A stretch of 64,000 nucleotides of DNA, taken from the NCBI GenBank assembly GCA_021789975.1, contig JAJYIT010000001.1, forward strand, positions 138,247 to 202,246, in the 5' to 3' direction. Shown in pieces: positions 41,108-42,639 of the stretch. How positions within the stretch are numbered: position 1 is the first letter of the stretch; each line of letters opens with the position of its first letter. The position numbers and the translations under genes were made by a program. The notes under the pieces are model-generated. The model was not told where the DNA came from and did not search any database. It saw only the letters and a program-made list of their open reading frames with translations. Source of the DNA: Bacteroidota bacterium. GTDB taxonomy: Bacteria > Bacteroidota > Ignavibacteria > Kryptoniales > JAKASW01.

Positions 41108-42286
41108 CTAATGAATTAGAACCAGCTCCTCTTGTTCTCTCCCGGTTATTGATGCTTTGTCGGGACCTTTGATATAAACATTCAATTCGGATCTGACTCC
41201 CATTTTCCCTTCGATATAAATTCCTGGTTCCAGTGAGAAGAGGCAGCCGGGGACAAGAAGCCGAGTATCCTGGGTTTCAAAATTGTCTATATTTCCGCCG
41301 TTTCCGTGCACTTCCTCGCCGATGGAATGTCCTGTCCGATGGGTGAAAAATTCTCCGTAGCCGGCGTCTCTGACAACGTTACGGCAAACGTCGTCGACCT
41401 CAAATCCCGCCACCTGTTGACCCGCGCTCAGCCTTTTATTCAAGAATTCAAATCCGGCACGCCTCGCATCGCACACGGTATGAAAAGCGTTCACATATTC
41501 ATTCGGGGGATCATCGCCGACAAATGCGCTCCATGTTATGTCATAATATATTGCCCCGGGCTTATCCAGCTTTGCCCAAAGGTCTATTAACAATTTGTCC
41601 CCGGGCTTGATCTTCCTTGACCCCTTAGATGTCGGGGCGAAGTGGGGGTTTGCGGGGTGGTCGTTCGTTCCAACTATCGGAAGGTCATCATAAACGAGCC
41701 CATTGCTCCTGAATCGCTTTCCAATGAACTGCTGAATTTCGTATTCGGTTTTGTACTTTTTGTTCTTGAGAGTCTTGCGTACTTCATTAAACGCTTCATC
41801 GAGTATCTGGTCGATTATTTTTCCTGCTTTCACGTGAGACTTGAAAGCTTTCTCGTCAAGCACTGCTTCGAACTGCTGAACGAGGTCCGCTGACGAGACA
41901 ATCTGATGTCCCATCCCCTGGATCAGTTCGAGGGTTCCACCATCCACAATTGACACGTAAGGGACCGCATTCTTTGGAGAGTATTGCATGGCGATCTTCG
42001 ATGGGTTGCCGAGCATCGCCTTTAAGCCTGCGTGCAGCTCCTGCCAGGTTGAATACATCGTTTTCCTGCCGGGGAGCGAATCGAGCTTTGTCGGTTCAAC
42101 TCTATGGGCAAGTTTAACAGGTTCTCCGATTGCCGGCACATAATAATACCAACGACGCGTCGCCATTGCTTTGGGATCGAGTCCCAGGATCTTCAAACCC
42201 AGATGATCGCGGTTGTGGAAGTCGAAGAAGAGCCAGCCGTCGAGGCCAAGAGAACTTAATGCGGTTTGAATTTTTTCAAGATCCAT
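41108..42286 (-). CDS. M24 family aminopeptidase (Xaa-Pro peptidase-like)
   Basis: Pita-bread fold metallopeptidase, 392 residues, cytoplasmic. The five metal ligands can be placed: Asp in LLIDLWAKL, Asp in IYYDITWSAF, His in HRTGHSIGEEVHG, Glu in FSLEPGIYIEG and Glu in GVRSELNVYI. The N-terminal half is the creatinase-like domain. The family includes Xaa-Pro aminopeptidases and dipeptidases; the sequence does not settle which. AACAGGAGCAACG before the ATG is a strong ribosome site. About 105 bases upstream on the same strand ends the candidate small RNA or attenuator, which could therefore lie in this gene's leader. Confidence 0.88.
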   Translation of the reverse strand: MDLEKIQTALSSLGLDGWLFFDFHNRDHLGLKILGLDPKAMATRRWYYYVPAIGEPVKLAHRVEPTKLDSLPGRKTMYSTWQELHAGLKAMLGNPSKIAMQYSPKNAVPYVSIVDGGTLELIQGMGHQIVSSADLVQQFEAVLDEKAFKSHVKAGKIIDQILDEAFNEVRKTLKNKKYKTEYEIQQFIGKRFRSNGLVYDDLPIVGTNDHPANPHFAPTSKGSRKIKPGDKLLIDLWAKLDKPGAIYYDITWSAFVGDDPPNEYVNAFHTVCDARRAGFEFLNKRLSAGQQVAGFEVDDVCRNVVRDAGYGEFFTHRTGHSIGEEVHGNGGNIDNFETQDTRLLVPGCLFSLEPGIYIEGKMGVRSELNVYIKGPDKASITGREQEELVLIH

Positions 42287-42390
42287 CGTTGCTCCTGTTT
42301 TTGGTCAAGTTATCGAGTGCCGCCCGCAAAAGCTATGCTCTAAATTTGAAACTGGAATCGCAAAGTCTTCTCAAAAATTTAGGACGGTGG

Positions 42391-42432
42391 CAATAAAAAA
42401 CCGACCCGCAGTGGGGTAGCCTGCAGGTCGGT
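42391..42432 (-). terminator. Intrinsic terminator of the candidate small RNA
   Basis: On the minus strand, ACCGACC (42432-42426) and GGTCGGT (42406-42400) form the outer stem and GCAG/CTGC the inner stem with one mismatch between, followed by T6 (42400-42395). The stem, loop and U-tract fit an intrinsic terminator reading leftwards. Confidence 0.88.
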
Positions 42433-42493
42433 ACGGATAGTCCGAGGATTCTTGGGGTAGGGTGGGATCCTCGTCGAAACTCATTCTTAAACC
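42391..42493 (-). ncRNA. Candidate small RNA or transcription attenuator with two C-rich hairpin loops
   Basis: A predicted minus-strand transcript of about 100 nt runs from just below the promoter at 42500-42528 to a U6 terminator. It has two stem-loops. The first has a 7-bp stem (CGAGGAT/ATCCTCG, 42443-42449 with 42467-42473); the second is the terminator. Read on the minus strand, both loops contain CTACCCCA, a C-rich word that could pair with G-rich ribosome sites. No coding frame is apparent. It could be a free regulatory RNA, or the attenuated leader of the M24 peptidase gene 105 bases further on. I cannot match it to a known family. Confidence 0.5.
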
Positions 42494-42499
42494 CGACCT

Positions 42500-42528
42500 A
42501 ATATAGGTGCGCAATTTTGTTAATGCAA
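42500..42528 (-). promoter_or_regulatory. Sigma70-like promoter on the minus strand
   Basis: TTGCAT (42528-42523) and TATATT (42505-42500) on the minus strand are separated by exactly 17 bases. They resemble TTGACA and TATAAT. Transcription would start near 42493, just before the two stem-loops. Bacteroidota often use a different core promoter, so this match needs transcript evidence. Confidence 0.55.
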
Positions 42529-42639
42529 GTGAAAAAAGTTGATTCATGATCGCTGTCCAGATATCGAAAGAGCATTAGAAATGCAAAAGAGCACGCAAAC
42601 ACTTATATTGACCCATACCGATGGTTGAATTAACACGGG

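Follow-up and report, generated by a model that had tools for sequence, protein, structure and literature searches.

CsrB/RsmZ carry a repeated loop motif acting on protein, and 6S RNA, a highly conserved free RNA, likewise acts on protein. If it binds protein, the element described here would resemble these RNAs in manner, not in family, as it combines a repeated loop motif with high conservation as a free RNA, whereas GGA loop motifs, a 6S bubble and a match to Rfam are missing. To our knowledge, regulatory RNAs are almost undescribed in Kryptoniota-type lineages, and a literature search for both topics together found no papers. These bacteria are largely uncultured, and the genus considered here is devoid of Hfq.

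In Xanthomonas, the 4C/5C loops of sX13 act on targets with 4G motifs without Hfq; this RNA is confined to Xanthomonadaceae and always adjoins polA, while its flanks are variable (PMC3771888). LhrC of Listeria exposes UCCC words redundantly, in one loop as well as in that of the terminator, and binds its targets without the need for Hfq; it is present in five copies, bears the word CUCCC...UUUU, has a third, single-stranded site and binds Shine-Dalgarno regions (PMC4132741). As summarized in the LhrC study, the Staphylococcus aureus RNAs RsaE, RNAIII and SprD employ UCCC loops as seeds fitting the Shine-Dalgarno sequence GGGA (cited in PMC4132741).

The locus presented here was found in the window, i.e., the whole analyzed stretch of 64,000 nucleotides from a 4.7-Mb metagenome-assembled genome (MAG) whose relatives are Kryptoniota-type Bacteroidota. 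With sX13 it shares an apparently stand-alone nature, high conservation within a narrow taxon, a constant neighbor, variable flanks and CCCC loops, here in an Hfq-less genus. In contrast to sX13, it comprises two stem-loops instead of three, its sequence and phylum are different, and M24 and a Kryptoniota-type genome take the place of polA and Xanthomonadaceae, which, with no homologue detected outside the genus, sets it apart from the sX13 sequence family; moreover, the 4G targets of sX13 have been shown, whereas pairing is predicted here. Like LhrC, it bears a C-rich word twice, once in an internal loop and once in that of the terminator, but the word is UACCCCA, only two sites are present and no sequence similarity was noted. 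C-rich loops are also common to RsaE, RNAIII and SprD, whereas UACCCCA misfits GGAG(G), the Shine-Dalgarno sequence of the genus.

Promoter and Structure of the Predicted RNA

A first-pass annotation had proposed a promoter TTGCAT-17-TATATT on the minus strand, followed by two stem-loops, the second being a terminator with U-tract, and by the word CUACCCCA in each loop. Direct reading bears out all of these elements (Table 1), and in the case of the promoter they are corroborated by conservation of hexamers and spacing. The -35 box is changed to TTGCGT in the second copy found in genome G002 (copy 2) and the -10 box to TAAATT in three relatives, while each of the 13 copies has exactly 17 nt between both, with drifting spacer and 5' leader sequences. 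A consensus scanner called neither promoter nor terminator at the locus, the former because TTGCAT matches TTGACA at only three of six positions, the latter because a 9-nt loop exceeds the scanner limit. Judging from the promoter, transcription would start at about 42492-42495. G008 and copy 2 lack the 5' leader and have just 8 nt between the -10 box and the core, hence the minimal transcript probably begins at the core. The predicted product is an RNA of 87-107 nt, presumably transcribed from its own sigma-70-type promoter.

Hairpin 1 encloses a 17-nt loop, CCCACCCUACCCCAAGA, and is invariant over the 13 copies except for a one-base loop insertion in copy 2, whereas the loop of hairpin 2 consists of 9 nt, GCUACCCCA. 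As loop 2 of copy 2 carries AUACCCCA in place of CUACCCCA, the invariant word is UACCCCA. Folding of the 88-nt core resulted in a z-score of -3.8, with 0 of 200 shuffles being as good, and values of -3.5 and -3.8 were obtained for the core in two relatives. The 113-nt span of the first-pass annotation, which includes the variable leader, folds only modestly better than its shuffles (z of -1.6). In the minimum-energy structures, both UACCCCA words are unpaired, leaving the C-rich word free in two loops. A small open reading frame can be dismissed for the core, as its RNA strand contains zero start codons and all codon positions are invariant.

Table 1. Features of the RNA locus and its downstream neighbor (window positions unless a contig is given).
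Feature	Position	Strand	Basis or details
-35 box, TTGCAT	42523..42528	-	Read directly; kept in 12/12 orthologues
-10 box, TATATT	42500..42505	-	Read directly and compared across 13 copies
Variable 5' leader	42480..42494	-	Inferred from promoter position
Invariant core, 85 nt	42395..42479	-	Identical in 11 other species of the genus
Hairpin 1, CGAGGAU/AUCCUCG	42443..42473	-	Arms 42473-42467 and 42449-42443
First CUACCCCA, loop 1	42453..42460	-	Direct reading
Hairpin 2, intrinsic terminator stem, 12 pairs	42400..42432	-	Arms 42432-42421 and 42411-42400
Second CUACCCCA, loop 2	42412..42419	-	Direct reading
Terminator U-tract	42395..42400	-	Direct reading and comparison
-10-like box ATAACT, putative M24 promoter	42308..42313	-	Inferred; kept beside the ATG in relatives
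M24 peptidase (PF00557), downstream neighbor	41108..42286	-	Syntenic; outside the RNA gene
Second RNA copy	G002, L103:3429-3514		Promoter, both hairpins and terminator present

Conservation and Distribution

By blastn against 61 relatives, the element was found in 12 of the 13 genomes of the genus. In the remaining genome, G005, residue 174 of M24 is the first one on the contig (L083), with the contig end 7 bases away; since the contig ends inside M24, the RNA site was not assembled and the absence represents an assembly gap. All 11 other species with an intact locus have the same core, TTTCGACGAGGATCCCACCCTACCCCAAGAATCCTCGGACTATCCGTACCGACCTGC[T]GGCTACCCCAC[A]GCGGGTCGGTTTTTT, and the only departures from it in the window copy are an A and a T, respectively, in place of the two bracketed bases. 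These two positions form a base pair of the terminator stem, hence the change is compensatory (U-A to A-U). Since only one such event was observed and stem 1 is without any variation, support from covariation is confined to the terminator stem. Past the U-tract, the sequences are no longer similar.

The mean identity of the core, computed from exact comparison, is about 0.996. Two yardsticks were taken from the same genomes, M24 with a mean identity at 4-fold sites of 0.37 (synonymous-saturated) and an amino-acid identity of 0.82, and the signal recognition particle (SRP) RNA with a mean pairwise identity of 0.960, which is below that of the core. The identity across 11 other species places the element beyond chance, and stricter conservation than that of SRP RNA, in genomes with saturated synonymous sites, is the mark of an important function. 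Retention of the loop word and the stems in relatives, the check proposed along with the first-pass annotation, was observed for both loops as well as for the stems.

Conservation of this grade would also be expected from a known housekeeping RNA such as SRP or 6S RNA in disguise. This explanation is extremely improbable, as a threshold as lax as E 5 produced no Rfam match, and as separate loci carry SRP RNA in 13/13 genomes and a 6S-like RNA in six. The 6S-like RNA (L221-L226), present in 6 of the 13 genus genomes, scores above the gathering threshold in two of them, and the 6S RNA of the lineage seems to be divergent, with poor coverage by the Rfam model.

Searching Rfam 15 from the gathering threshold up to E 5 resulted in zero family matches at the locus. 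A covariance model of the element matched 12 of the 13 genus genomes but gave no credible score in 232 other genomes of the class and none in 293 out-of-genus genomes from across the phylum, a sample partly overlapping the class set; because the model was built from nearly identical sequences and is weak for remote relatives, genus-specific here means undetectable beyond the genus. Weak matches (E between 0.008 and 0.98 per genome, among 245 genomes) were obtained in G053, G202, G110 and G031. The one in G202 lies inside a coding sequence on the opposite strand and that in G053 is without a U-tract, and both were taken as chance. In the sister family (G013-G019), the element was not found upstream of M24, nor was the model matched. 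Likewise, the core was unmatched in phage and plasmid collections, and viral contigs gave zero matches to a 20-mer of the core. The 16-mer CCCACCCTACCCCAAG had 11 matches in viral contigs, of which the one inspected is a C-rich repeat.

Relation to the M24 Gene

The RNA is flanked by a divergent glycosyltransferase-9 (GT9) gene on one side and by M24 and a RadA-like gene on the other, and the order GT9 - RNA - M24 - RadA is conserved in most loci whose flanks allow comparison. As this gene order is shared, an inherited neighborhood is the best explanation for the link to M24. Alternatively, the element might be a cis-acting leader controlling M24 by terminator read-through, the attenuator considered in the first-pass annotation. 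The position directly upstream of M24 in 12 orthologous loci would be in favor of this, as would the 5' sequence GGTCGG (42498-42493), which in the window is indeed equal to part of the 3' terminator arm and able to match it. However, conservation does not extend to the GGTCGG arm, which G008 and copy 2 lack altogether, so that the suggested competition with the terminator does not hold up across the genus. In addition, the M24 start codon (ATG at 42286) is 108 nt past the U-tract in the window, and between 47 and 223 nt of unrelated sequence separate both across the genomes.

Close to the start codon, M24 has a -10-like box, and a TTGAA/C box is located 17 nt upstream of it in 9 of 12 genomes; in the window, the -10-like box is kept and the -35 is poor. 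This arrangement is suggestive of a short leader and a promoter of M24's own. The box, ATAACT(T), is situated about 20-30 nt before the ATG (window 42300-42336 and relatives).

Copy 2 in G002 has neither M24 nor GT9 nor RadA on its 5.8-kb stretch. With an estimated contamination of G002 of 5%, the contig could be from another species, but whichever species owns it, the contig still speaks for an existence of the RNA without M24. The element stays beside M24 at the 12 orthologous loci but not at copy 2. Considering the variable arm, the unrelated gap, the apparent separate promoter and this M24-less copy, an attenuator is very unlikely.

Copy 2 is located between imperfect 50-nt direct repeats (L103:3293-3342 and L103:3546-3595, 88% alike), which gives the impression of an insertion or duplication of the whole unit. 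Such repeats, together with conservation of the whole 85 bp, could also be explained by an element working at the DNA level, e.g., a protein-binding or recombination site. Such an element is highly improbable in view of the fixed promoter spacing, the compensated base pair of the terminator stem, a U-tract confined to one strand and the single orthologous locus with conserved orientation.

The first-pass proposal of a new small RNA is thus substantiated by the conserved promoter, core, loops and terminator, by the second copy and by the missing Rfam match, and a stand-alone functional RNA is very likely. Gene, predicted promoter and structure as well as independence from M24 are demonstrated by comparison of the genomes, and the existence of a strongly selected small RNA gene of its own is well supported. 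It represents a new family of a known kind, intergenic structured small RNAs, with unusually extreme conservation. This implies an important function outside every current RNA family, and the exact sequence, the promoter and two candidate seed loops are now available for tests.

Possible Mode of Action

Two or three C-rich loops are an established layout of Hfq-independent small RNAs, as in sX13 and LhrC, and by analogy the stand-alone RNA most likely acts in trans and independently of Hfq, which is absent from 13/13 genus genomes in a search that was positive in five control genomes. Offering UACCCCA in two loops, it would pair with G-rich (UGGGGUA-like) sites in a few specific mRNAs and alter translation or stability of those mRNAs. 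For a functional stand-alone RNA together with this base-pairing mechanism, we estimate a probability of about 0.5, the pairing mode and the mRNA targets being the presumptive part. Pairing of the C-rich word with ribosome sites, as envisaged in the first-pass annotation, is a plausible analogy, but translation starts show no enrichment of GGGGUA. Among 906 predicted genes (1.18 Mb), GGGGTA, TGGGGTA and GGGGTAG near the starts tend to be rarer than permuted words, and the duplex energies of both loops with the translation-initiation regions of the 906 starts are no better than those of shuffled loops, in a target screen that is coarse because a simple script supplied the gene calls, which cover a quarter of the genome. 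Since UACCCCA is not complementary to GGAG(G), broad masking of ribosome sites is unlikely, while a few specific mRNA targets are possible.

Besides the loops, the stems are frozen as well, which pairing via the loops only would not require. A protein-binding role is therefore a strong rival, in which the twin UACCCCA loops would dock an RNA-binding protein that is sequestered, scaffolded or activated by the RNA. Invariance of stems, linker and loops fits recognition of the whole shape, and repetition of the same word in both loops, the lack of enriched pairing sites at translation starts and a genus without Hfq point in the same direction. On the other hand, the loops are without the GGA word of CsrA sites and no partner protein is known; overall, we consider this role possible, albeit rather unlikely. 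Slightly more doubtful is a genus-specific RNA of housekeeping grade, with conservation above that of SRP RNA, whose twin UACCCCA loops dock a protein or a ribosomal component, not mRNAs. If true, a deep-branching lineage without Hfq would possess a new class of RNA that binds protein or acts on the ribosome.

Returning to base pairing with mRNAs, the best candidate target was the early coding sequence of mnmE (-28.6 kcal/mol), which was rejected as the interaction is not conserved, with values from -12.8 to -28.9 in relatives. In G000, mnmE (L260:12371-13762, apparent GTG start) is complementary to loop 1 at 14/15 positions within its G-rich early codons; this complementarity is similarly strong in G001 and lost in several relatives. 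With seven tRNAs, pairing of loop 1 was near the level of shuffles and that of loop 2 was 1.5 sd below it. Avoidance of the complementary word was also discarded, as its rarity is accounted for by its sub-words. For the exact word TGGGGTAG, no convincing start-site target was found among the sites inspected. Many of the TGGGGTAG sites (L149, L153, L175, L187 and L194, and further ones at L201, L204, L205 and L206) are the reverse complement of AAC TAC CCC AAC CCG, reminiscent of the NYPNPFNP motif in the C-terminal sorting domains of type IX secretion. The likeness, in sense orientation, of the RNA loop to this coding sequence is probably due to chance.
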